Below are positions 277-14,059 of a stretch of DNA of 14,101 nucleotides, one piece after another. A program made the translations under genes and the position numbers. Below the pieces are notes generated by a model that did no database searches, was not told where the DNA came from, and was given only the letters and a program-made list of their open reading frames with translations. This DNA comes from Ardenticatenaceae bacterium (lineage in GTDB: Bacteria > Chloroflexota > Anaerolineae > Promineifilales > Promineifilaceae): NCBI GenBank assembly GCA_020634495.1, contig JACKBR010000085.1, positions 1-14,101 of the forward strand. Direction: 5' to 3'. How positions within the stretch are numbered: the first letter of the stretch is position 1; every line of letters begins with the position of its first letter.

Positions 277-2280
277 TTACTGAAATGAAATTGCTTGCAA
301 AATAGGCGTCACTGACCCGTCTGAAGTAAACAGGACGCGGTAGCGGACGGTGCCATTTAGCTCTGTGTCTGTTAAAGGGATACTGTTCTGGCCATCTCGC
401 AACTCAAAGCGGCCGTTTTCTACCCAGCTCTCCCCTTTATCCGAGGTTTCTAACTGTTCTAGCACCAGCACCAAACTTGTGCCTTCCGGAATTTCAACCT
501 GATAGTCAATCTCCTGCCACACATGTCCTGCTTCGGTTACATAAGCAGAAGAAACAAGCTGACCTTTAGCAACGTAGGCATCGGGATTGTCATAGGTTGG
601 TACAGCTAAACTGCCATGCGACATATGATCTCCGCCATCTGGCGACCCTACGACAATGGAGCCATAGCTGATTTGACCAGGCAATGTGGTAAAATTTGCG
701 CTGTCGTAAAAATTAGCGCGGTCGCCCGTTCCTTCGTAAATGCGGACAGGCCGGTAAGGCTGGCCAAAATCCCCCAATTGGCTAAATAAAATATCCAAAA
801 TACCGTCGCCATTATAATCTGTGACGGTACTTCCTTGTGACGCTTCCGTTGCCAACGGCAGACGGTTATCATCTGAAAAACCATCTGCCCCACCCCAATA
901 AATGTAGCTGTAGGGGTATTCAGGCTTGCCAACGTAAAGATAGGTTCCTGTCACGCTAATGATCAAATCGAGCCAGCCATCCTGATCCAGGTCGGCTACA
1001 GAAACGGCACTGCCGCCATCTGTGGCTAAATCAGTGCGGTTGTCTACAGAATAACCAGCGGTGCTTCCCCAATATACAAAGGTGTCTGGCAAAGGCGGCA
1101 GAGCAAAACTGCCTGCGTTGGCAAAAACAATATCGGGGAACCCATCCTTATTAAAATCGGCCACTTTGACGCCTGTTGCACCTTTGGTAGGCAGTTCAAT
1201 ACGTTGCTCTGCTGAGAAACCTTTCGGACCACCCAGGTAAATATAGCTAGGTGGCCAGTTGTAATCTTGCCCATAATCTAGAAGCTCATCCACCGGTGGG
1301 AAACCGGCTGAATTGGAGAAAACAATATCCAACCAGCCATCTCTGTTCATATCGTGTATTACCAGTCCGCCAACACCATGGGTTTCAAGCTCGGTACGAT
1401 TATCGGCTAAATACCCGTCTGGCCCGCCCCAATAAATTAAACTGGGTGGAAAAGGAAAGGTGTAATCGCCCAGGTTGGCAAAAACAACATCCGGGTAGCC
1501 GTCTTTATTTAGATCGCCAACGGCCGTTCCCGTGGCAGCATTGGTGGGTAATGAAACAAAGCGATCTCGCTGGTACCCATCCTGGGTGCCCCAATAAATT
1601 CGGCTGTTGACATAAGGCGGATGAAACTCGCCGCCGCCAGCCATCGCCAGATCAAGAATGCCATCAAGGTTTAAGTCCATCGCTGCAATGCTGCTGGGTC
1701 TTTCACCGGGAATGCCTGTTGTCCTGTTTTGATCATACCCATCTGGCCCGCCCCAATAAATTTGGGCATCAGGCATGGTATGGTCTTCATTACTCAGCCG
1801 GATTTGGGCAAACGGTGCGTCGATGAATTCATAGTTGCCCGAATTGGCAATAATAATGTCTGTATAGCCATCATTATTTAGATCGTTGTTTAGGGTAGCA
1901 GACGCTGCATCCAAATGGCTCAAAGCCAGCGTGCCGTCCTCAAGGCGTTGCAGTCCGGCGGTAAAATTATAACCAGCTTCATTTTCTGCCCTAACAAACC
2001 CTGGCCCATCAGCCCAGCTTGTCTGGTTCCAGCTGAGTGTGTTTGAAACGGCCGTTGAATCAACTTCACTTTCCGTCGAATCGGCAACACTTTCTGCTGA
2101 ATCAACCACACTGTCTGTTGAGTCAATGACATCTTCGGCCGTATCGACAATACCATCCGTTGAATCGACGAACGTTTCTGGCTGAGCTGCTTCTTCAACA
2201 GCGCCATCTGCCTGGCAAGCAGCCAGCCATACTAGGCCCAACACAACTAAAAGTAAAATCATTATTTTTCGAGAAAACAT
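277..2280 (-). CDS. Lipoprotein with seven FG-GAP/VCBS-type propeller repeats
   Basis: Predicted exported lipoprotein of 667 residues. The N-terminus has a charged start, a hydrophobic core and a lipobox LAAC with the lipidation cysteine at 22. Residues 38-79 are six tandem 7-residue units of the VDSTDxV type, probably a flexible stalk. Seven calcium-loop motifs of the DxNxDGxxD type start near residues 133, 202, 256, 310, 375, 430 and 488. Most blades also carry an IYWGGPDGY-like motif, so residues about 125-520 should form a seven-bladed FG-GAP beta-propeller. The C-terminal 140 residues look like an all-beta domain. A strong Shine-Dalgarno (GGAGGT, 2287-2292) lies 6 nt before the ATG. The gene starts 18 bp after the MacB-type ATPase stop, so it is probably the extracytoplasmic partner or binding subunit of that transporter. 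Such propellers usually bind proteins or glycans; the ligand is unknown. Confidence 0.88.
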   Translation of the reverse strand: MFSRKIMILLLVVLGLVWLAACQADGAVEEAAQPETFVDSTDGIVDTAEDVIDSTDSVVDSAESVADSTESEVDSTAVSNTLSWNQTSWADGPGFVRAENEAGYNFTAGLQRLEDGTLALSHLDAASATLNNDLNNDGYTDIIIANSGNYEFIDAPFAQIRLSNEDHTMPDAQIYWGGPDGYDQNRTTGIPGERPSSIAAMDLNLDGILDLAMAGGGEFHPPYVNSRIYWGTQDGYQRDRFVSLPTNAATGTAVGDLNKDGYPDVVFANLGDYTFPFPPSLIYWGGPDGYLADNRTELETHGVGGLVIHDMNRDGWLDIVFSNSAGFPPVDELLDYGQDYNWPPSYIYLGGPKGFSAEQRIELPTKGATGVKVADFNKDGFPDIVFANAGSFALPPLPDTFVYWGSTAGYSVDNRTDLATDGGSAVSVADLDQDGWLDLIISVTGTYLYVGKPEYPYSYIYWGGADGFSDDNRLPLATEASQGSTVTDYNGDGILDILFSQLGDFGQPYRPVRIYEGTGDRANFYDSANFTTLPGQISYGSIVVGSPDGGDHMSHGSLAVPTYDNPDAYVAKGQLVSSAYVTEAGHVWQEIDYQVEIPEGTSLVLVLEQLETSDKGESWVENGRFELRDGQNSIPLTDTELNGTVRYRVLFTSDGSVTPILQAISFQ
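2044..2169 (-). repeat. Six 21-bp tandem repeats encoding a heptad stalk
   Basis: Six imperfect 21-bp units lie in frame inside the lipoprotein gene. On the plus strand they follow a pattern like gttgaatcnacnacactntc. Each encodes a 7-residue unit such as VDSTDGI, VDTAEDV, IDSTDSV, VDSAESV, ADSTESE and VDSTAVS. The period equals seven codons, so unit number can change by slippage without breaking the frame. The position directly after the lipidated cysteine fits an acidic, Ser/Thr-rich spacer lifting the propeller off the membrane. Confidence 0.85.
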
Positions 2281-2298: not shown

Positions 2299-2982
2299 TT
2301 AACGGCCGTTCCTCAGCTCCATCAACCGCCCATCCACTAGTTCAAACCGGCGCTGCGGCTTGTCTATGAGTTCAGGTTGGTGGGTCACAATCACAACGGC
2401 ACACTTCTGCACACTATTCACAAATCCTGCCAATAACCGGATAATTTCTAAGCCCGTTTTGCGGTCCAGATTGCCGGTTGGTTCGTCAGCCAGAATAATA
2501 TCCGGCTGTTGTATCAAAGCTCGGGCAATGGCCACACGTTGCTGTTCCCCGCCAGATAATTGCGACGGCCGTTGCCCCATCTGCTGCTCCAACTCCACCG
2601 CTGCCAGCAGCGACGTTGCCCGTGCTTCATTTACAACGCTACCTGAAAGAATAAACGGCAACGTCACATTTTCTAGCGCTGTCATGTGACTCAATAAATG
2701 GCTTTGCTGAAAGACAAAGCCAATATGCTTGGCGCGTAGCTGGGCCAGCTCATTACTTGTCAGCGAGCTGGTGTCCTGCTCGTCAATGGTTAACCGGCCC
2801 GCACTTGGAGTATCCAGGCAACCCAGAATGTTCAGCAAGGTTGTTTTGCCAGACCCGCTGGCTCCTGTAATGACAACCAGCTCACCGGGACGAATGCACA
2901 GCGAAACATCAGATAAAGCCATTCTACCAACACCAGCCTGAGAATATATTTTGCTAATATTTTCGGCTCTAATTTGCGTCAC
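2299..2982 (-). CDS. MacB/LolD-type ABC transporter ATP-binding protein
   Basis: Cytoplasmic ATPase of 227 residues, the usual length of the MacB/LolD/FtsE-like class that drives FtsX-fold permeases. Visible motifs are Walker [10 protein letters not shown] (40-48), Q-loop Q92, signature [15 protein letters not shown] (142-156), Walker B ILADEP (163-168) with catalytic E167, D-loop NLD, and H-loop H201. [10 protein letters not shown] is characteristic of this subfamily. The start is GTG at 2980-2982, directly after the TAA of the fusion permease and preceded by GAGGTGG (2987-2993), so the two genes are translationally coupled. The obvious partner is the FtsX-type half of the upstream fusion protein, with the downstream lipoprotein as a possible accessory. 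MacB-type systems work by mechanotransmission rather than classical alternating access, so the output may be mechanical work on an extracytoplasmic domain. The substrate is unknown. Confidence 0.95.
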
Positions 2983-5900
2983 TTAGCCACCTCGCCGTAT
3001 CGCTTCCACGGGCTGCAACCGGGCCGCAACATAGGCCGGATAGCTGCCGCAACCCACTGTGATAAGCAAGGAAAAAACAAGCGCAAAAAGCAACAAATAA
3101 GGAGCAACAGGCAAGACAGAGACGCCGGCAATCCATTGCAACAACAGCAGCAGGATAAAGCCAAGCATGCTGCCCAAAACGGCGCTGATCAGGCCAATGC
3201 TGGCCGCTTCAGCCAAAAAGATGCGCATTACGGCCGTATCGCTGGCCCCTAGCGCCTTCATGATACCAATTTCATCAATACGCTCGCGGATTCCCACAAG
3301 CAGCATGTTGGCGACACCAATGCCGCTGACAATCAGCGTTAAAAGACTAATGACCGTCACAATAGCTGTAAATTGGGCCAGCAGCGTATCTACCTGGCTT
3401 AACAATCGCTGACTGGAAATAATGCTAAATTCAGTATTGGCGTGATGGGTATTAATAATAGTTTCTAGCTGCTGCGTCACCGTTTCTATGACGGCCGAAT
3501 CCTCCACTCGCACCTCAATGCCATCATAATAGTCACGCCCAGTGAATTTGGTCGCTTCGGCCAGCGGGGTATAAATCGTGATGTCCGGGCTGACAATGGT
3601 CTCCAGACGCCCGCGAATGCCGCCGACTTCATCCATCGTGCCCACCACCGTCATACGATTGCCATCGATCGTCAGCTCGTCACCAACTGAAAGGGGGCGG
3701 GCAAAAGCATCCTGGGCTACCGCGTACCCCACCACCACTTCATCTGGCGCTGATTCGGTTAAGAAACGGCCGTCTCCCATTTGGGCCACAGACACGTCTA
3801 AAAACGTCTCCGGTTCGACAAACTGCACAGTCATCTGCAAAGTTTGCCCATTGACGGTAACAGGTAAATCTTCCTGGGCGAAGGGTGAAGCCCCAATCAC
3901 CTGGGACAAGGAACTTATACCGTCTACATCGTCATCATCCAGGCGAGCCTTAGGCTGCACCCGCAACCCTTCCGTTGGTGGGCCAAAACGAACTTCAAGC
4001 TGATAAGGTAAAACCAGTAGGCGATTGGTGCCAAAGGTAGCAAAATCTTTTGTGAGTTGGTTACGGAAAGCCAGCGTTAGCGTAAGCGTAGCCCCAATCG
4101 CTGCTGTCCCCAACACCACCCCGGTGCTGGTTAGCACTGTACGCAAACGGTGCCGGCGTAAATTACGCACACCCAACAAAAACAAAGGTCGTTGACGGGC
4201 GACAACCACACCGAGCCAAGCTAACCCACCCAGAAAGACCGCCACCCCAACACCGCCCACGATTATTTGCCAGGTCAAAAATCTGGGTGATTCTGATTGA
4301 AAAGCTTGCGTCAGGGTGTGGGTTTGTCCTGTAACATCCAGATAAGTGACTTGCAGCGTGGGGTCCGTAGTTGGGATGGACTGGCTGAGACGGCTGCCAG
4401 CTTCGAGTTCATCAATTTGCCATTCCCAGTTGATGTCTGGCGCGGTTAATTGCAGAGAGCGGGCCGCATAACGGCCGTTATTCTCCACCCACAAACGCGC
4501 TTCATTTCTCCCCTCCGGCGTGAGCGTAAACGAAAGGTCAACCGGGCCACCCAGTGCCGGACCGCCCGCCACAGGTGTAGGCAATTGCTGATGGGTCACC
4601 TCGTACGAGGTGCAATCTTCAGCCAAAGATTGCTGCCGGTATTCGCCTAGTGCCAATAGTGGCCAGTGGGTAGCGTAGAGATCATTGGTGTAGGGGTCGA
4701 TGCCCAAAACTGTGTAGGCATTCCCAGGCCAATCACCGTCTTCAGTTTGAGTAGTAAGCAAATATTGCACACCCGCCACCAGAGCGGGATCATCCTGAGG
4801 TAGCCCAGCGGCCAACAAACCCAGTACACCCCAGGCTGTTTGCTCAGGCGTACTGGCAGCGGGGGCAGTGTAACTGATACCTCGACTTTGATCCCATGAA
4901 GAGAAGGCCTCGCCCCAACCACCATCCTCGTTTTGTTGATCGCGCAGCCAAGCCGCGGCCGTTTGCACAAACGGAGCCTGCCTATCGGCTTCTACATCAT
5001 GTAAGCCCACCAGGACGGCCGTTGTGCCATACAGATAGCTCAATCCCCAACGGCCGTACCACGATCCTTGTTCTGTTTGCGCCCGTTGTAAATAAGCAAT
5101 TGCCTGATCAATTTCCGGGTCACCGGCTGTGTAGCCCACAGCCCCCAGAGCAGAAAGAACATGGCCTGTCACGTCGGGAATGCTGGTGTCTTCAATACCT
5201 GTTGGCAGATCGGCGTCATTTTCCTGGTCGTCGTCTTGCAAAAAGGTAGCCCAGCCGCCATCTTCACCCTGCATAAAAAGCAGCCAGGCTTCTGCCTTTG
5301 CCACCGCGGTCTGCCGAGCGTATTCCGTGTGGCTGCTACGCCCCACCATTTGGCTCATGGCCAGCAATGCCAGGCTGGTATCGTCGCTGTCGGGGTAGAT
5401 AAGGTTATTGGCGTTATACGACCACCCGCCTGGTGCAGCCTCCGAAAGATCCAGACCGCCTGGTGATTGGGTAGAGACCAACCATTTGATTGTAGGCTGT
5501 AAGGCAGGATCACAGGCAGACACCCCTCCAGAATGCAAAGCTAATACGGCCAGGGATGTATCCCACACGCTTAATTCAAACGGCCGTAACAACCCATCCG
5601 GTAATTGTAAGGAGCGTAAGAAACGAAAGCCATCCTCAATTTGGGGCCGGTATGCGGTTCCATCCAGGTCGTGCAAGGCCATGATGGCAAAAAAAGTTGG
5701 GTATCCGGTAAACCAAGAACCGTCGGCCAATTGATGGGAAAGCAACCACGTTTCCGCTTTTTCCAACCCTTGACGCTCGACCAACGATAAATCATTGTTT
5801 TGATGAAGCGTTCGCAATACAGTCACTGGCACAAATCCTTCACGCCACCAGGGTGGGAAGGAGCGCATGGTTTCCGGCGGCGTCCCAGGAGCCAGCAATA

Positions 5901-6438
5901 GCTGCGTGTTAAATTGCGCCAAAGCCGGTCCATTCCAATCGCCTTTACCGAATAGAGCGTACATCGCCTGCACGAGCGGGTCTGCCGCCTCGATACCACC
6001 ATGCCGGGTTATATATTCTTGACCACTGGTGAAATCAACAGTTTCTGGTGATACTCCGGCTAATTCCAGTGCCAACAGGGCTGCGGCCGTATTCGATAAA
6101 CTCGCCGGGCTTTCAGCTACCGTTTGGCCCCATGTTCCCGTAGCATCTTGGCTTTCAGCCAGCCAGGTAATGGCCATATCGTAATAAGGCTGGTCAAAAA
6201 TACCCACATAATTGCTGGCAATGATGTAATAAGCCGTATGGCGGCTGGACATGGTAATGTTGCCAGCCCAATATCCAGTGGCGTGCTGCCTGGCGAGCAG
6301 GCTATTGATGGCCAGCTCAATGGCCTGGTCAACTTCATCGCCAGGCTGCGCCAGAGCTGACGAGCGGGCACCAAAGAACCCAATCAAGCACAGGACAGCT
6401 CCCAAAAAACGGAGAAAGATGGTACGGTGTTTCTTCAT
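2983..6438 (-). CDS. Exported squalene-hopene-cyclase-like domain fused to MacB/FtsX-type permease
   Basis: A 1151-residue fusion. Residues 1-30 are a signal peptide ending ALA-QP. Residues about 36-602 align block by block with squalene-hopene cyclase: QHATGYW near the start, VWDTSLAVLAL at 291-301, the class II acid motif YPDSDDT at 348-354 (D350, D352, D353), DVTGHVL (422-428), GSWYGRWGLSYLYGTTAV (458-475), STPEQTAWGVLGLLAAG (529-545) and WPLLALGEYR (592-601). QW-type motifs end at W57, W103, W242, W396, W460, W508 and W570. Residues about 630-715 look like a beta-sandwich linker. A helix (725-747) follows, then a MacB-type permease: helix 768-790, extracytoplasmic domain about 800-1015, and three helices near 1021-1048, 1078-1103 and 1111-1130, with the FtsX-like GIGVANMLLVGIRERIDEIG. 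The cyclase part would lie outside the cytoplasm. The ATG overlaps the methyltransferase stop (ATGA) and lacks its own Shine-Dalgarno, so it relies on coupling. Whether it cyclises or only binds an isoprenoid cannot be read from sequence. Confidence 0.92.
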   Translation of the reverse strand: MKKHRTIFLRFLGAVLCLIGFFGARSSALAQPGDEVDQAIELAINSLLARQHATGYWAGNITMSSRHTAYYIIASNYVGIFDQPYYDMAITWLAESQDATGTWGQTVAESPASLSNTAAALLALELAGVSPETVDFTSGQEYITRHGGIEAADPLVQAMYALFGKGDWNGPALAQFNTQLLLAPGTPPETMRSFPPWWREGFVPVTVLRTLHQNNDLSLVERQGLEKAETWLLSHQLADGSWFTGYPTFFAIMALHDLDGTAYRPQIEDGFRFLRSLQLPDGLLRPFELSVWDTSLAVLALHSGGVSACDPALQPTIKWLVSTQSPGGLDLSEAAPGGWSYNANNLIYPDSDDTSLALLAMSQMVGRSSHTEYARQTAVAKAEAWLLFMQGEDGGWATFLQDDDQENDADLPTGIEDTSIPDVTGHVLSALGAVGYTAGDPEIDQAIAYLQRAQTEQGSWYGRWGLSYLYGTTAVLVGLHDVEADRQAPFVQTAAAWLRDQQNEDGGWGEAFSSWDQSRGISYTAPAASTPEQTAWGVLGLLAAGLPQDDPALVAGVQYLLTTQTEDGDWPGNAYTVLGIDPYTNDLYATHWPLLALGEYRQQSLAEDCTSYEVTHQQLPTPVAGGPALGGPVDLSFTLTPEGRNEARLWVENNGRYAARSLQLTAPDINWEWQIDELEAGSRLSQSIPTTDPTLQVTYLDVTGQTHTLTQAFQSESPRFLTWQIIVGGVGVAVFLGGLAWLGVVVARQRPLFLLGVRNLRRHRLRTVLTSTGVVLGTAAIGATLTLTLAFRNQLTKDFATFGTNRLLVLPYQLEVRFGPPTEGLRVQPKARLDDDDVDGISSLSQVIGASPFAQEDLPVTVNGQTLQMTVQFVEPETFLDVSVAQMGDGRFLTESAPDEVVVGYAVAQDAFARPLSVGDELTIDGNRMTVVGTMDEVGGIRGRLETIVSPDITIYTPLAEATKFTGRDYYDGIEVRVEDSAVIETVTQQLETIINTHHANTEFSIISSQRLLSQVDTLLAQFTAIVTVISLLTLIVSGIGVANMLLVGIRERIDEIGIMKALGASDTAVMRIFLAEAASIGLISAVLGSMLGFILLLLLQWIAGVSVLPVAPYLLLFALVFSLLITVGCGSYPAYVAARLQPVEAIRRGG

Positions 6439-7463
6439 GCTGTCGATTTGGTAGCAATAATAAGCGAAGCAGGATTTCGTAAATGACGAACTTTTTGGGT
6501 TCGAAATCCTGCCTCGTCCAACCATTGCCGGATGGTCGTTTGTTTATATGTTTTGCCTTTTCCAAAAAAACAGCGCATCCCCAACGAAAATGAAGCTGAC
6601 CAGCCTTTAGCCAAACGGTCAGCCAAAAAGTCGGCGACGACCAGCGTGCCACCGGGAACCATAGCCTGGGCCAAACGGTGAAGAAGCTGTTGGTTTTGAG
6701 TCGGTGAGAACAGATGCAAAATGGAAAAGAGCAGCACAATGTCGTACCCTTCTCCCAATGAGTGTTGCCAAAAATCGCCTGGCTGGTAGGTTACACGATC
6801 TTGCACTGCCATTTCGACAGCTACCTCTTGCCCGATGGCAATGGCCGCGGGCTGGTCAAATACGGTTGCCTGGAGTTGCGGATACCTTTGGCAAAAAGAG
6901 CTGGCATACAGTCCGTGACTGCCGCCCAGGTCTAGCAGTCGCCGAGCCTGGGTAGGCACGGGAACATGAGCCAACACCTGGCCAACAGACATCCTGGCTC
7001 CATCACGCATGCCAAGTACGTAAAAGCGCCAACGGTCTGGTTTTTGGGCCAGGTAGGTTTGGTAGCTAGTGGGCAGCAAGCCGGTACGGGTTAGTTCAGT
7101 CAATGAGGTGGCCATGAAGGCGGCATCTTCCTGAAAGAGAACCATGTTGCTCAAGCTGGTGGGGGAGGTGCTGACAAGGTATTTTCTGGCCGTGCGGGTG
7201 TTTTGGTAACGGCCGTTTTTCACTTTGACATAACCAAATCCCTCCAAAGCATCCAACATCAATTGTAGCGTATCACCCTCTGCCTGAATCGTCTGAACAA
7301 TCTTGTCATATGGCTGTGGGGTACCCGCCAGCGCATCGAACACCCCCAGTTGGGTAGCAGAAATGATAATCCGGGCCTTCATCACCGGATCGGTCACATC
7401 CAGCAAGGGCTGGGGAACAACATCGAGCCAACCTAAAATTGCCAACAGGATAGACTGCCACAT
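6435..7463 (-). CDS. Class I SAM-dependent O-methyltransferase (Methyltransf_2-like)
   Basis: Predicted 342-residue methyltransferase. Residues about 20-100 form the winged-helix dimerisation region typical of bacterial and plant small-molecule O-methyltransferases (GVFDALAG, then LDALEGFGYVKVKNGRY). The SAM motif I is LLDLGGSHGLYA (176-187), followed by the ribose-binding acidic block VFDQPA (201-206), GDFW (229-232) and the post-motif YDIVLLFSILHLFSP (240-254). The C-terminus (TIRQWLDEAGF) is also typical. The start at 7463 is fixed by GAGGAG (7469-7474) five nt upstream, with the stop of the ABC-2 permease inside that spacer; a longer in-frame extension would overlap the permease gene and is unlikely. 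The stop overlaps the start of the fusion gene by 4 nt. The family methylates hydroxyl groups on aromatic, polyketide or isoprenoid-quinone-like molecules; the substrate here is unknown, but it is coupled to two transporters and a cyclase-like protein. Confidence 0.9.
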   Translation of the reverse strand: MWQSILLAILGWLDVVPQPLLDVTDPVMKARIIISATQLGVFDALAGTPQPYDKIVQTIQAEGDTLQLMLDALEGFGYVKVKNGRYQNTRTARKYLVSTSPTSLSNMVLFQEDAAFMATSLTELTRTGLLPTSYQTYLAQKPDRWRFYVLGMRDGARMSVGQVLAHVPVPTQARRLLDLGGSHGLYASSFCQRYPQLQATVFDQPAAIAIGQEVAVEMAVQDRVTYQPGDFWQHSLGEGYDIVLLFSILHLFSPTQNQQLLHRLAQAMVPGGTLVVADFLADRLAKGWSASFSLGMRCFFGKGKTYKQTTIRQWLDEAGFRTQKVRHLRNPASLIIATKSTA

Positions 7464-7465
7464 CT

Positions 7466-8239
7466 TTACTCCTCTTTTGCACTCACTCCCTTGATGAAGA
7501 CACGATGCGAAAGAAACAGAAAGACAGCGGCAACTGCCAGCACAACGCCCAAGCGCCACAGGTAATCGTTCCACCCCAAGCCATCGATTAAAACGGTGCG
7601 CATCGCTTCTACGGCGTAGGTAATAGGGTTAAACCGAGCAATGGTACGGATGAAGCGTGGCGCAAATTCGATGGGAAACAGTGCCGAACTCAGGAAAACG
7701 GGAGGCAAAATGAGCAGCTGTAAAAAGCCAATGAACTGTTCCGGAACAAAATTGATCATCATCATGGATAAGCTAATAAAAATAAGCTCGACGGCGACAT
7801 AAACAACAATGATCAGCGGGATTCCGGCAAGGCCCGTTACATTGTGCATGCCCATCAATGCGCCAACGCCCATAATAACCAGTGATTCAACAACACCAAA
7901 TAAGATAGTAACCGTGGCCTGACCCACAAAAATGGATGTCCGGGAAATAGGCGCCACCAAAATTTTGTCCAGGAAACCGTAATAACGGTGCCAGGTCAGG
8001 TTAAAACAGCTAATGAGTCCGCGGGCGACAGCATTCATCGCCAGGATGCCGGGGACGAGGAAGGTTGTGTAGTTGGGGGCAGGGAACCCAGGAAAACGAG
8101 CCAAGTTATAGAACATTGAACCAAAGAGGAGCAGCCATAAGATAGGATTAACGAATCCGAGAACGATAGGAACAGGATTTCTCCTAAGAAAGCGAGATTC
8201 TCGCCACATGATGGTGGGGGCATCTTTAAGTGCAGACAT
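7466..8239 (-). CDS. ABC-2 type (DrrB-like) transporter permease
   Basis: An integral membrane protein of 257 residues with about six predicted helices, the standard length and plan of DrrB/NodJ-type ABC-2 permeases. Family blocks seen are the amphipathic start WRESRFLRRNPVPIV, LVPGILAMNAVARG, the coupling segment RYYGFLDKILVAPISRTSIFVG, and the conserved ABC-2 signature region around ILPPVFLSSALFPIEFAP followed by ARFNPITYAVEAMR. The ATG lies immediately after the TAA of the DrrA-like ATPase gene with no spacer, so the pair is co-translated. It should form the membrane channel of a drug, lipid or polysaccharide exporter with that ATPase. The methyltransferase gene starts 2 nt after its stop, which suggests the exported compound may be methylated first. 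ACGGCCGT does not occur in this gene, unlike most of its neighbours. Confidence 0.93.
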   Translation of the reverse strand: MSALKDAPTIMWRESRFLRRNPVPIVLGFVNPILWLLLFGSMFYNLARFPGFPAPNYTTFLVPGILAMNAVARGLISCFNLTWHRYYGFLDKILVAPISRTSIFVGQATVTILFGVVESLVIMGVGALMGMHNVTGLAGIPLIIVVYVAVELIFISLSMMMINFVPEQFIGFLQLLILPPVFLSSALFPIEFAPRFIRTIARFNPITYAVEAMRTVLIDGLGWNDYLWRLGVVLAVAAVFLFLSHRVFIKGVSAKEE

Positions 8240-9202
8240 TTAATTCACCTCTTTGCCTAAATGATAGAAGAAGACGTCATCTAATGTGGGTTGTGTCAGG
8301 CTCAAAGCCTGAGGTACCAAGCTCAAACCATCCAACTTTTGTTTGACGACCAGAAGCGCATCGTTCTCGCCCGTGGTAAATAGTTTCAGGTGGTTGCCAT
8401 CCTGAACCATCTTGCGGATGCTGCTTTCTGTTTGTAGTGTTTTGGCGGTTTGGGCTACGGCCGTATCATCCTGCAAGGTAACATCCACAATGGCGGCCCC
8501 AATGCTGGTCTTTAGTTCTTGGGGTGTTCCCTTAGCAATAATTTGACCATTGTTGAGCAGTGCTACCTGATGGGCCAGTTTATCAACTTCCTCTAGAAAA
8601 TGGGTCGTGAGGAAAATGGTCATGCCCGCAGCTGGCAACTGTCGGATATGCGATAAAATGCGCTGCCGATGGGTGACATCAACCCCAGAAGTTGGTTCAT
8701 CCAGGAAAAGCACCTTGGGTTTGTGCAGTAGACCAGTCGCAATGTCCATCAATTTCCGCATACCGCCAGAATATTCCAGGGCGCGTTTGTCGGCGTCTTC
8801 CTTCAAGCCCACCAATTCCAACACCTCATCAATGCGCTGGGCCATCAACTCTTTGTCCATGTTGTAAAGTCGCCCTTGCAAAATAAGGTGTTCACGGCCG
8901 CTGAGCGCTTCATCGGCCTGGGCCTCTTGGGGAACATAGCCAATGGATTGGCGCACCTGCCTGGCCTGGGTGACGATGTCGTAGCCGTTGACAGTGGCCG
9001 TTCCTGAGGATGGCGCTAAAAGGGTGGTCAACATTTTCACGGTGGTTGTTTTACCAGCACCATTGGGGCCGATCAGGCCAAAGATTTGATTTTCTGCAAT
9101 GCTTAGATTCAGGTTTTTTACGGCCGTTTTCTCCTTATAACGACGTGTCAGATTGTTTATACTAACAATCGAACTCCTGGTTGATGATGTGTGGTTGTCC
9201 AT
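8240..9202 (-). CDS. DrrA-like ABC transporter ATP-binding protein
   Basis: ATPase of 320 residues. Motifs: Walker A GPNGAGKTT (45-53), Q-loop Q92 in GYVPQEAQADEALSGRE, signature YSGGM (144-148), Walker B VLFLDEP (164-170) with E169, D-loop SGVD and H-loop H201. The signature context reads YSGGMRKLMDIATGLLHKP rather than the more common YSGGMRRRLEIA. The C-terminal part (about 235-320) is the regulatory extension typical of DrrA, ending QPTLDDVFFYHLGKE. I chose ATG 9202 because AAGGAG (9207-9212) lies 4 nt upstream; a further in-frame start at 9238 would add 12 unconserved residues and lacks that signal. The gene follows the SPL-like gene by 45 bp and abuts its permease. Daunorubicin-type exporters and lipid exporters share this architecture, so the family alone does not name the cargo. 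Confidence 0.94.
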   Translation of the reverse strand: MDNHTSSTRSSIVSINNLTRRYKEKTAVKNLNLSIAENQIFGLIGPNGAGKTTTVKMLTTLLAPSSGTATVNGYDIVTQARQVRQSIGYVPQEAQADEALSGREHLILQGRLYNMDKELMAQRIDEVLELVGLKEDADKRALEYSGGMRKLMDIATGLLHKPKVLFLDEPTSGVDVTHRQRILSHIRQLPAAGMTIFLTTHFLEEVDKLAHQVALLNNGQIIAKGTPQELKTSIGAAIVDVTLQDDTAVAQTAKTLQTESSIRKMVQDGNHLKLFTTGENDALLVVKQKLDGLSLVPQALSLTQPTLDDVFFYHLGKEVN

Positions 9203-9247
9203 ATCACTCCTTCTTAAATGGTTTGATTCACAATTCATAGGCCTCGT

Positions 9248-10178: not shown

Positions 10179-11177
10179 TTACTTTGTTTGATGCTGCTGT
10201 AGGCGTTGATGAGCACGAGCGATAACGAAGGTCACCCAGGGTGATGGTTGTTTCTTTTGCCCAAAATCGAAATCAGCGTAAGGTTTGTTAATTCCTTCTG
10301 TCTTAAAAGTGTGATCAGGCAGTTGTTTGTCGGTAACGCTGTTGAGCATATCGATAAAACGGCCGTCTGCCAGCGCCGACGGGAAATTAGAAAGAGTATC
10401 AATTGTTTTGAGAATTTGATGCTGTACAAAGGGATACTGCAATTTATTGAATGTAGAGCCCATGCCGAAGCCAACTGGCCGATAAGGTTCCTCGCGACGT
10501 TCCCATAGCATCAGAACATTTTCTACACCGCGTCGCACTGTTTTGCTGTCCCGCAAGGGGGGATTGGCAGCCAGAGCGCGCAAAACATTCACAGTACCAA
10601 AGGGGCAACTTGGCTCTTCAGCCCGCTCTCCGTGGGGCAGGTTTTTTTCGTTGGGGTGCCAGCCACCATCAAGCGTTTGCCACGCTTCAATGTAGTCGTA
10701 GGTTGCCTGTACGCGCGGGTCATCCAAATAACCATAACAGGCCAGGGCATAGGTCATCACATGAGAGATACAGATGTATGGCCGTTTATCCCAGCTCTTG
10801 GTATGGTCCATACCGCCATGCAAAAAACCAGGTGGATACGGGTCCTCTGCCTGAAGATCAAGCACTTTTTGAGAAATCTTTGCTATCCGTTCATCATCTC
10901 GCTTCAGGCCAAAATCAGCCAGCATTGCCAGCTTCCACAAGGAATCCTTGGGGTCATACGCCTTGCCAAGGCGCCGCTCTTGTGGCCACACTTGCAACGA
11001 CTCCAATAAATCTGCCACGCGTTCATGCTGCTGTAACCATTCATAAGCAGCCTGAACCTCTGGCGTGTCCGCCGATTGCCCCAACAAATCGAGGCGTGTA
11101 TTCAATACGACCCATGGTGCTTCTTGGGTCAGCAACCATTCAGTCAAGGTTACAGTAATTGGCAAAACACGATACAT
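10179..11177 (-). CDS. Terpenoid-cyclase-fold (alpha/alpha toroid) protein, prenyltransferase/squalene oxidase repeat type
   Basis: A 332-residue, probably cytoplasmic protein with no signal peptide or clear membrane helix. It has repeated helical hairpins of the prenyltransferase/squalene-oxidase fold: WKLAMLADFGL (81-91), SHVMTYALACYGYLDDPRVQATYDYIEAWQTLDGGWHP (138-175) with a QW-type QTLDGGW, and FGTVNVLRALAANP (193-206). The N-terminus (EWLLTQEAPWVVLNTRLDLLGQ) resembles a widespread uncharacterised group of such proteins. It is about half the length of a squalene-hopene cyclase and shows no DXDD motif, so class II cyclase chemistry is unlikely. ATG 11177 has AAAGGAG (11190-11196) at a long 12-nt spacing. 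It appears to be the first gene of the eight-gene operon, 13 nt ahead of the SPL-like gene. It might bind or chaperone an isoprenoid; that is inference. Confidence 0.8.
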   Translation of the reverse strand: MYRVLPITVTLTEWLLTQEAPWVVLNTRLDLLGQSADTPEVQAAYEWLQQHERVADLLESLQVWPQERRLGKAYDPKDSLWKLAMLADFGLKRDDERIAKISQKVLDLQAEDPYPPGFLHGGMDHTKSWDKRPYICISHVMTYALACYGYLDDPRVQATYDYIEAWQTLDGGWHPNEKNLPHGERAEEPSCPFGTVNVLRALAANPPLRDSKTVRRGVENVLMLWERREEPYRPVGFGMGSTFNKLQYPFVQHQILKTIDTLSNFPSALADGRFIDMLNSVTDKQLPDHTFKTEGINKPYADFDFGQKKQPSPWVTFVIARAHQRLQQHQTK

Positions 11178-11918: not shown

Positions 11919-12473
11919 TCAAGGACGTCCGCTCCGGCCAACAAAGCGAGGATTGAGGGCGCATTTCACATTCAAACATTTTGCGCAAATACGTTGTTTA
12001 TGGAAGATCTGCCAGCTTAAGGCCAAGACCAGGAAGAGGACCAAGGCCCACCAACTTTTATAGATGAAGAGAAAAACTGGCGGATAAATACTGACGCCTA
12101 GCCACAGTAAAGGTACAACCAGGTCTTCCCCTAGCGTATAATCACCGCTGCGGGCCTTGAAAAAACGTTGGGCACACTGCCCGCCAGCCATGTAGCATCG
12201 TTTACCATAATACGGACATTTGGTGCAGGCCAGGTAAAGGTAAGTTATATAGGCAACCGGACCGAGAATGAAGTATACAACCCCAGCGACCAGATTGTTC
12301 CAGGTTACGGCCGTTGCCCCCACAACATACCAGGCTACCAGCCAGGGCAAGTAGATACGCATATCACGCTGGCTGTACTGCTGCACGGGAATGATATGGC
12401 GGTAGGGGTGTTGCGCAAGCGGCAGCTTACCTGGGATTTCTTCTAAGAATTGAGCAACGCGCCAAAGCTTCAT
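11919..12473 (-). CDS. Cysteine-rich four-helix membrane protein, unknown function
   Basis: A 184-residue protein I cannot name. Hydrophobic segments lie near residues 41-57, 60-81, 117-135 and 137-157, so four helices with both ends probably on the same side. Two cysteine clusters follow the helix pairs: CTKCPYYGKRCYMAGGQC, with C83, C86, C93 and C100, and CAKCLNVKC, with C163, C166 and C171. The spacing suggests metal or iron-sulphur binding at the membrane face, or a redox-active role. The gene begins 14 nt after the stop of the radical SAM gene; its Shine-Dalgarno AAGGTG (12481-12486) is 7 nt from the ATG and just overlaps the region of that stop, so the two are almost certainly co-expressed. 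A membrane partner delivering electrons or lipid to the radical SAM enzyme is a reasonable inference, not a demonstrated role. Confidence 0.85.
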   Translation of the reverse strand: MKLWRVAQFLEEIPGKLPLAQHPYRHIIPVQQYSQRDMRIYLPWLVAWYVVGATAVTWNNLVAGVVYFILGPVAYITYLYLACTKCPYYGKRCYMAGGQCAQRFFKARSGDYTLGEDLVVPLLWLGVSIYPPVFLFIYKSWWALVLFLVLALSWQIFHKQRICAKCLNVKCALNPRFVGRSGRP

Positions 12474-12487
12474 ACAAATTCACCTTC

Positions 12488-14059
12488 TCAGTCGGTACCA
12501 ATTTCGACTAATGGTATGAAGTTTTCCGGCTGCAACGATTTGATACCAACTGACGGCAGAAAAGAGCCCGTTAATTTGTTGCTCACCGACACATAATTGC
12601 CGGAGCCTATCTTTTTCTCAACCCCATGACGATAGAAAGTGTTATAGCTGCAAAAAGGAACCTGATTACCGTCGGGAACCAGGTAATGGATAGAGCATGT
12701 TTCTACTCGCTCCACATCAAAGTTCCACTTGTCCATATGATGAACGCAGCTCACCATCAGCACGTTATCAAGGTCGGCCATAGGGTCATGGGAGCCTTTG
12801 AAAAGGCTGTTAATGACTACTTCACGGAATACGGGGTTAGACACCTGGGTGAAGGCTCGCCACAACAATTTACCCGCGTATTTGAATTTGGTCAGAGAGC
12901 GGCGCATCCCTTTGCTAGCTTTGAGCGCCTTCGCCCCTTCATCCATCAGTTGCAGTATCGGCTCTACTTGAATGAGCTTACTAAGTGGGACAAGGCTGTT
13001 GTCTTTGGGATCAATATAGATGTAGGTAGCGACGTTGCAACAAGGATGGGTGTACAGTTTGTCTTGCTTTTGCTCGGTCAGCTGCTCGAAGAATTCGGCA
13101 ATAGGCAGCATAGCACCCACCGGATAAAAGTCACTCCGTTTGATAACGCCATCGGTTTGCTGTTCCAGATAATACATGAAGTCGTAGGGTGTGGAACGCA
13201 TCTTGTTGACATCAAATTGGGTGGCACGGCCGTAGAAGGTAAGCGTTTGGGCGACGACACGCTTAACCACGTGGCTATTGTGAGCAGCAAAGCGCATAAT
13301 ATCGCCTATTTCATGATCGTTGAGTCCTTTGGTGAGGGTGATAACCAACACGACGGTCAAGCCAGCTTCATGGGCAGCGTCGATGGCTTTTTGTTTTTGG
13401 GCAAATAGTTTGGCTCCCCGGTTGAATTTGTAAATTTCGTCGTCGAGGCCATCAAATTGCAGACCGATAGCATGCAGACCAGCCTGTTTGAGCTTGAGGG
13501 CATAGCCTTCTTCCCGGGCAAGCCGTAAGCCGTGGGTGTTGATTTCAATGCGGCCGTAGCCCATCTGCTTCGCTACCCCAATCATCTCCGGCAACTCATC
13601 ACGCAGTGTTGGCTCACCACCAGAAAACTGAACCGTAATGCGTTCAGGCGTACCTCGTTCTTTGAGCTGCTTGAGCATCCCGGCCACCTCGTCCACAGTC
13701 GGCTCAAATGTATTGGCCATATGCAGCCTTGATTCGGAAAAACAGATGGGGCATGTGAGATCACAGCGATTAGTTATATCAATCAAGGCAATCAGGGGGG
13801 AGCCACGATGCTCACGACAAGGGCCACAGTCACGCGGGCAGGATTTGTTGCGCAAACGGCCGTCTTCCGGCAAATGTTGAAAGCCCATAAGCTGCTTGTA
13901 ATTTTCTGCGTCAGACCAGTAGAGTGTTTTGAAATGGCCGTGCTCTGGGCACACCTTCACCATCATCAACTGCCCGTCCTGCTCAACCAGGCTTGCCTCA
14001 AGAATTTTGTCACAAACGGGGCATACGCTTTGCGTTTGGCGGATTGCTAATTGTTCCAT
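12488..14059 (-). CDS. Radical SAM protein of the Tes/MJ0619 (COG1964) family
   Basis: A 523-residue radical SAM protein. The N-terminal part has C13PVC16 and C37PEH, then CPRDCGPC (C74, C78, C81), and the SAM cluster motif CDLTCPIC (C99, C103, C106). FSGGEP (145-150) is the SAM-binding GGEP-type motif. C-terminal cysteines include C340/C341, C438, C455 and C470 within ETCSIHYLVPDGNQVPFCSYN, a block I recall from the Tes/MJ0619 family. Archaeal Tes joins lipid tails by carbon-carbon bond formation to make tetraethers; many bacterial homologues have no known product, so the name gives the family only. The cysteine pattern fits several iron-sulphur clusters. ATG 14059 lacks a strong Shine-Dalgarno. 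It leads the two-gene unit with the cysteine-rich membrane protein. Confidence 0.87.
   Translation of the reverse strand: MEQLAIRQTQSVCPVCDKILEASLVEQDGQLMMVKVCPEHGHFKTLYWSDAENYKQLMGFQHLPEDGRLRNKSCPRDCGPCREHRGSPLIALIDITNRCDLTCPICFSESRLHMANTFEPTVDEVAGMLKQLKERGTPERITVQFSGGEPTLRDELPEMIGVAKQMGYGRIEINTHGLRLAREEGYALKLKQAGLHAIGLQFDGLDDEIYKFNRGAKLFAQKQKAIDAAHEAGLTVVLVITLTKGLNDHEIGDIMRFAAHNSHVVKRVVAQTLTFYGRATQFDVNKMRSTPYDFMYYLEQQTDGVIKRSDFYPVGAMLPIAEFFEQLTEQKQDKLYTHPCCNVATYIYIDPKDNSLVPLSKLIQVEPILQLMDEGAKALKASKGMRRSLTKFKYAGKLLWRAFTQVSNPVFREVVINSLFKGSHDPMADLDNVLMVSCVHHMDKWNFDVERVETCSIHYLVPDGNQVPFCSYNTFYRHGVEKKIGSGNYVSVSNKLTGSFLPSVGIKSLQPENFIPLVEIGTD

Follow-up and report, generated by a model that had tools for sequence, protein, structure and literature searches.

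What does the fold of a squalene-hopene cyclase (SHC) do when a single polypeptide joins it to an export signal and to the membrane permease of an ABC transporter? The question is raised by one gene in a 14,101-nucleotide stretch of contig JACKBR010000085.1 from an Ardenticatenaceae bacterium (Chloroflexota), the whole of which is called the window below. The gene occupies positions 2983..6438, the exact coordinates of a preliminary description of this DNA, and lies on the minus strand, which that description had left unnamed. It starts with an ATG at 6438 and ends with a TAA at 2985-2983; the 1151 codons of its product, P0001 (1151 aa), are open, with no stop or frameshift between the two halves, as had been claimed, and the plus-strand reading of the same interval contains 40 stops. 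A second in-frame ATG exists further upstream, at 6525. The ATG at 6438 overlaps the TGA of the upstream gene as ATGA and is directly followed by a signal-peptide-like stretch ending ...SSALA/QP, the slash marking a cleavage site placed by eye.

The reading favoured here, with rather more confidence than doubt, is a type VII (MacB/FtsX/LolCDE-like) ABC permease carrying a class II terpene cyclase that is tethered to the membrane on its extracytoplasmic side, works by the SHC mechanism and may take part in ATP-driven lipid handling. From the sequence we infer cyclase activity, and catalysis outside the cell is likely, with sensing of an isoprenoid or mechanical movement by the ATPase as less likely roles; the identity of the substrate and the coupling of ATP to transport are conjecture. 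The preliminary description knew of no described enzyme of this design, and the papers listed from a collection of 5.39 million open ones included no cyclase-ABC-permease fusion or exported class II cyclase, subscription-only papers lying mostly outside the search. To our knowledge, polyprene class II cyclisation is carried out by enzymes without signal peptides. Both halves of the fusion are of known kinds, and there is a real chance that the whole is a new kind of machine.

Architecture, family and topology

Pfam domains, family and fold all agree that a cyclase homologue and a MacB-type permease reside in one chain, as first described, behind a signal-peptide-like N-terminus. The predicted signal peptide (residues 1-30; 6349..6438, minus strand, as are all features given below) has the n-region MKKHR, a hydrophobic core at 6-24 and the by-eye ALA/Q site. 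It precedes a class II cyclase domain modelled as residues 31-610 (4609..6348), in which Pfam SQHop_cyclase_N scores 131 bits (best stretch 40-212) and SQHop_cyclase_C 283 bits (291-602), both far above their curated cut-offs. The predicted structure of this domain (pLDDT 89.4, pTM 0.91) bears out the description of a near full-length SHC homologue: 552 of the 580 model residues align to residues 8-630 of Alicyclobacillus acidocaldarius SHC (AaSHC; 2sqc) at 1.9 Å, and the acidic motif is matched to D374-D376-D377 by sequence. Class II drimenyl diphosphate and diterpene cyclases (7xq4, 5bp8) give 463 aligned residues by the same comparison. QW repeats are found at 51, 97, 236, 390, 454, 502 and 564 with the pattern Q-x(2-5)-G-x-W, which is looser than the published one. 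AaSHC residues 181-222, between two aligned stretches, have no counterpart in P0001. A non-catalytic complement-type toroid (TED_complement, 31 bits) was rejected as the best label, given the scores of the SHC models and an SHC fold that spans the whole domain.

The cyclase is followed by a beta-sandwich linker (residues 635-712; 4303..4536), visible as strands in the full-length model, as anticipated, and the least conserved part of the protein. Beyond it lies an additional transmembrane (TM) helix, TM0 (724-748 in the model, hydrophobic core 729-747; 4195..4269), and then a MacB/FtsX-type permease with its periplasmic core domain (approximately residues 753-1151; 2986..4182). The earlier assignment of a complete permease stands, with MacB_PCD at 90.6 bits over residues 767-993 (cut-off 27), FtsX at 68.4 bits over 1029-1143 (cut-off 25.5) and the type VII layout of four TM helices with a large domain between TM1 and TM2. 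The MacB_PCD and FtsX domains, the coupling-helix motif and a LolD/MacB-like ATPase gene next door are shared with MacB, the Streptococcus pneumoniae 5xu1 transporter and LolCDE, from which P0001 differs by the 600-residue cyclase, the beta-sandwich and the extra helix before TM1. The ATPase gene (2299..2982) has its GTG start immediately behind the fusion's TAA stop and encodes a Walker A motif (GASGSGKT), a signature motif (LSGGE) and, by eye, a Walker B motif (IILADE) where the strict Walker B pattern gave no match. Its LolD (240 bits, cut-off 307.75) and MacB (211 bits, cut-off 966) scores are both under the equivalog cut-offs.

Two homologue searches, which scored 7995 and 7991 candidates sharing most words, listed the best 120 of 224 and 120 of 291 matches. 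Among those listed, 25 database proteins belong with P0001, so that the cyclase-permease architecture recurs in at least 23 full-length proteins (1108-1232 aa). The remaining two are P0024 (855 aa, contig 2968), whose first residue already falls within the cyclase, and P0025 (788 aa, contig 3610), which ends before any permease domain and owes its membership to its position in the tree. Identity to P0001 falls from 97% to 33%, and further listed matches lack the permease and cover 28-51% of the query. The sources are several; the only organism-named member is P0020, a Pyrinomonadaceae (Acidobacteriota) metagenome-assembled-genome protein called 'ABC transporter permease'. Because the same architecture recurs in 23 full-length proteins, at 33-97% identity and from several sources, a chimera, frameshift or sequencing artefact is ruled out in practice. 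Two genome-contig scans and one viral-contig scan found no relatives of the fusion, and a tblastn search of 72,556 plasmid records gave matches in 765, not one of which reaches 80% coverage of the query; those listed, 20 in number, align with residues 22-610 alone, within the cyclase.

In a quick-method tree of the C-terminal part of the cyclase (131 rows, 25 of them fusions, P0024 being left out), the fusions form one side of a single branch with support of 100. The branch leading to P0026 is long (0.86), and both this protein and P0003 were flagged for letter make-up. P0027 and P0039 group beside the fusions (branch support 100, midpoint root) and resemble them in tree grouping and in DXDD, but have neither a permease domain nor, by a crude test, a hydrophobic N-terminus. 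P0027 (727 aa) carries an N-terminal extension without Pfam assignment. In P0039 (1113 aa), a subtilase domain and a middle region precede an SHC-like domain with DCDD.

The topology of the family places the cyclase outside the cytoplasm, in line with the earlier claim of export. This placement is strongly inferred from the N-terminal segment, TM0, the charge pattern of the loops and the established topology of type VII permeases (PMC5985334). A crude hydropathy test finds a strongly hydrophobic segment at the N-terminus of 17 of 26 fusions and of none of 105 SHC-like comparators, and every one of the 26 fusion rows has a TM0-like segment. Mean Lys/Arg content over 24 rows is 22% in the TM0-TM1 loop (Asp/Glu 0%), 21% in the coupling-helix loop and 19% at the C-terminus, all expected inside, compared with 10%, 9% and 1% in the three segments expected outside. 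P0001 differs from AaSHC (1sqc/2sqc/3sqc) in its apparent export and its fusion to TM0 and a permease, so that TM helices also hold the protein in the membrane. Reported SHCs are described as monotopic enzymes with QW repeats in which DXDDTA marks the start of polycyclisation, in a paper whose title describes a soluble SHC (PMC7232578).

Catalytic motif, pocket and competing readings

The motifs reported earlier are all present in P0001: VWDT at 291-294, PDSDDT at 349-354, GRWG at 462-465 and STPEQTAW at 529-536. The DXDDT catalytic-acid motif (D350, S351, D352, D353, T354; 5377..5391) aligns with AaSHC D374-D377. Its pattern, D.DD followed by T or S, occurs in 26/26 fusions, with D350, D352 and D353 all kept; DXDD is also found in 105/105 SHC-like comparators. 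The 25 fusions compared are invariant at the equivalents of AaSHC W169, W312, D313, D374, D376, D377 and D447, and likewise at those of H451, R488, W489, Y495, E535, G600 and Y612. At the H451 position, invariant in the fusions (25/25), the comparators have Arg in 83 cases and His in 22. Elsewhere in the pocket, F365 is replaced by Tyr in 24/25 fusions and Y420 by Phe, and Y612 is kept. Pocket conservation was tested on two lists of positions. The first, 29 positions named in the SHC literature without the gapped positions and Y609, has 17 invariant positions compared with 109/551 columns. The wider list has 45 scorable positions of 51 (434, 435, 437 and 605-607 being gapped), of which 25 are invariant, with a mean entropy of 0.370 vs 1.033 and 0/20000 random sets as low. 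Among columns conserved in the comparators, invariance in the fusions is modestly more frequent at positions of the wider list (18/21) than at the others (28/48). For P0001 and P0026, the two members furthest apart, identity is 46% in the catalytic half, compared with 29% in the N-terminal half of the cyclase, 33% in the periplasmic core, 33% in TM2-4, 30% in TM0-TM1 and 19% in the beta-sandwich.

Several observations weigh against an active cyclase working outside the cell. P0001 scores 325 bits with the hopene-cyclase equivalog TIGR01507, under the cut-off of 431.1, and is therefore filed as a class II cyclase-like domain only, not as a hopene cyclase proper. In the fusions E45 has become Tyr or Phe, I261 mostly small residues, F601 Ile or Leu and Y609 Asn, and alignment gaps fall at F434-F437 (Thr at 437 in one fusion) and F605-L607, so that the pocket end near F601-Y609 of AaSHC is remodelled; by eye, Y583 may stand in for F605. 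The two pocket tests, neither of which scores the six gapped positions, do not tell catalysis from folding needs. When all pairs of 24 members are averaged, identity is higher in TM2-4 (70%) than in the catalytic half (65%), and it is only between distant members that the cyclase is the better conserved. With a pTM of 0.55, the full-length model is too weak to orient cyclase and permease towards each other. Finally, nine of the 26 annotated fusion proteins show no hydrophobic stretch at the N-terminus; P0020 carries one at 69-87, preceded by an N-terminal extension, and in the other eight the annotated start falls inside or downstream of the segment, or the protein is truncated. The pocket changes and gaps, together with the TIGR01507 score, are read as a sign of a different substrate or product, so that from its sequence the domain is probably a class II cyclase for which hopene is an unlikely product.

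The same remodelled pocket end and sub-cut-off score would also suit a pseudo-enzyme, in which the SHC fold serves as an isoprenoid-lipid binding or sensing pocket, making it a receptor for cargo or a sensor for the transporter, without cyclisation. Type VII permeases are used in sensing too, BceAB being an example (PMC5985334). This explanation is improbable in view of an Asp triad invariant in every fusion, of the equally constant H451 and W312/D313 equivalents and of a catalytic half that outranks every other region in conservation when the two most distant members are compared; a domain that only binds has no need of a proton donor. Slightly less probable again is an ordinary cyclase that the fusion merely anchors to, or co-regulates with, an unrelated exporter, ATP hydrolysis being uncoupled from cyclisation and product transfer. 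SHCs are, as a matter of general knowledge, independent of ATP and reach their membrane substrate unaided, but the fusion has been kept across a deep clade with its coupling-helix motif conserved, the ATPase gene abuts it in the window, and mere anchoring does not call for a full type VII permease. A cytoplasmic cyclase, whose N-terminal stretch is no export signal or whose TM0 does not cross the membrane, could appeal to the nine entries just described; set against signal-peptide-like N-termini in 17 of 26 fusions and in none of the 105 comparators, the universal TM0-like segment and the strongly positive TM0-TM1 loop, it is very improbable.

Neighbouring genes and the tetraether synthase homologue

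The fusion gene lies within a run of minus-strand genes that the preliminary description, sound on the architecture, had left unmentioned, along with the adjacent ATPase gene and the tetraether-synthase neighbour. Read from 9238 to 277, the order is a DrrA-like ABC ATPase (8240..9238; TIGR01188 321.6 bits, cut-off 312.45), a DrrB-like ABC-2 permease (7466..8239; score under the TIGR01247 cut-off), an O-methyltransferase with Methyltransf_2 and dimerisation domains (6435..7463, ATG at 7463), the TGA of which overlaps the fusion ATG, the fusion, its neighbouring ATPase and an FG-GAP-repeat protein, by eye a lipoprotein (LAAC), at 277..2280, 18 bases downstream of the ATPase gene. The successive gaps are 0, +2, -4, 0 and 18 bases. 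Further upstream the run continues with an SPL-like radical SAM gene (Pfam Radical_SAM, the name given by eye), then with genes for a 332-aa protein, a SnoaL-like protein and an unassigned 184-aa protein, and finally with the homologue of the tetraether lipid synthase Tes. The 332-aa protein (10179-11177) has no Pfam match and a weak match to squalene-cyclase models (E ~6e-4 to 7e-4), and is possibly a small alpha/alpha toroid; as called, its gene overlaps the SPL-like gene by 38 bases. The 184-aa protein (11919-12473), 14 bases after the Tes-like gene, shows hydrophobic stretches and cysteine pairs by eye and has no Pfam match. The 11 named genes between 277 and 14059 all share the minus-strand orientation, the gaps between them are mostly very short (the largest, 165 bases, before 11177), and a single transcript may cover most of the window. 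Promoter and terminator scans came out at chance level (13 vs 14.0; 17 vs 16.9) and were not used. No MacA or TolC gene was found among the window proteins scanned.

The Tes homologue (12488..14059) scores 486 bits with NF045702 (cut-off 450) and 385 bits with 7tol. A search with it scored 7997 candidates sharing most words and listed the best 120 of 2019; among these, the 19 closest full-size proteins are 55-97% identical and the next full-size one ~42%, a 74% identical match, P0151, is a 306-aa fragment, and the matches with an organism name are archaeal. It is a possible bacterial gene for membrane-spanning lipids; Tes homologues in bacteria, proposed for branched tetraethers, are described in one report (PMC8941075). 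As a stand-in for the genomic context of relatives, the sizes of the longest contigs were compared, and 2/475 pairs of a fusion and a near Tes homologue agree exactly in this length (27227 and 31836 bases), against 0/13685 control pairs (0/1805, 0/2475, 0/9405). A pair differing by one base (18153/18154) was not counted, because such differences occur among the controls too (0, 2 and 1 pairs). The far-Tes control list comprises 99 proteins, the set P0152-P0251 without P0201, which likewise matches no fusion in length. These coincidences suggest that fusion and Tes genes may share contigs in other lineages.

Proposed mechanism and biological meaning

In the favoured reading of a tethered, extracytoplasmic cyclase, the signal peptide would send the cyclase across the membrane, where the beta-sandwich and TM0 would hold it above the permease. 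The latter, probably a dimer, would pair with the ATPase from the next gene. The cyclase would draw a neutral polyprene from the outer leaflet or the membrane midplane; the central Asp of DXDD (D352) would protonate a terminal double bond, and within the SHC-type cavity the chain would fold into rings. The periplasmic core domains, opening and closing under the power of ATP (mechanotransmission), would most likely feed substrate to the cyclase or lift the cyclised lipid from the membrane. MacB-type permeases use ATP to perform work at the membrane's outer side and do not move cargo across it (PMC5985334). Loading, unloading and the roles of the methyltransferase, DrrAB and Tes are conjecture.

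Drimenyl diphosphate and diterpene cyclases act on prenyl diphosphates, which the cell makes in the cytoplasm. Since prenyl diphosphates are cytoplasmic, the substrate here is more likely to be an isoprenoid that is neutral and carried in the membrane. Class II cyclisation requires the enzyme's own acid alone, so nothing forbids it outside the cell. A bolder proposal, at present a doubtful one, is an ATP-driven extracytoplasmic lipid-cyclising complex in which the type VII transporter mechanically loads or unloads the attached cyclase, in one pathway with the tetraether synthase, isoprenoid lipid chains being cyclised at the outer face.

An exported, transporter-bound cyclase implies that a neutral isoprenoid reaches the membrane's outer face and is transformed there, and with the fusion in hand the movement of hopanoid-like lipids between leaflets and between membranes in bacteria can be addressed directly. 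The link to Tes, if true, would tie cyclic isoprenoids to membrane-spanning lipids in uncultured bacteria and bear on where such lipids in sediments come from. More broadly, the fusion points to a possible synthesis of ring-shaped lipids outside the membrane in some bacteria.

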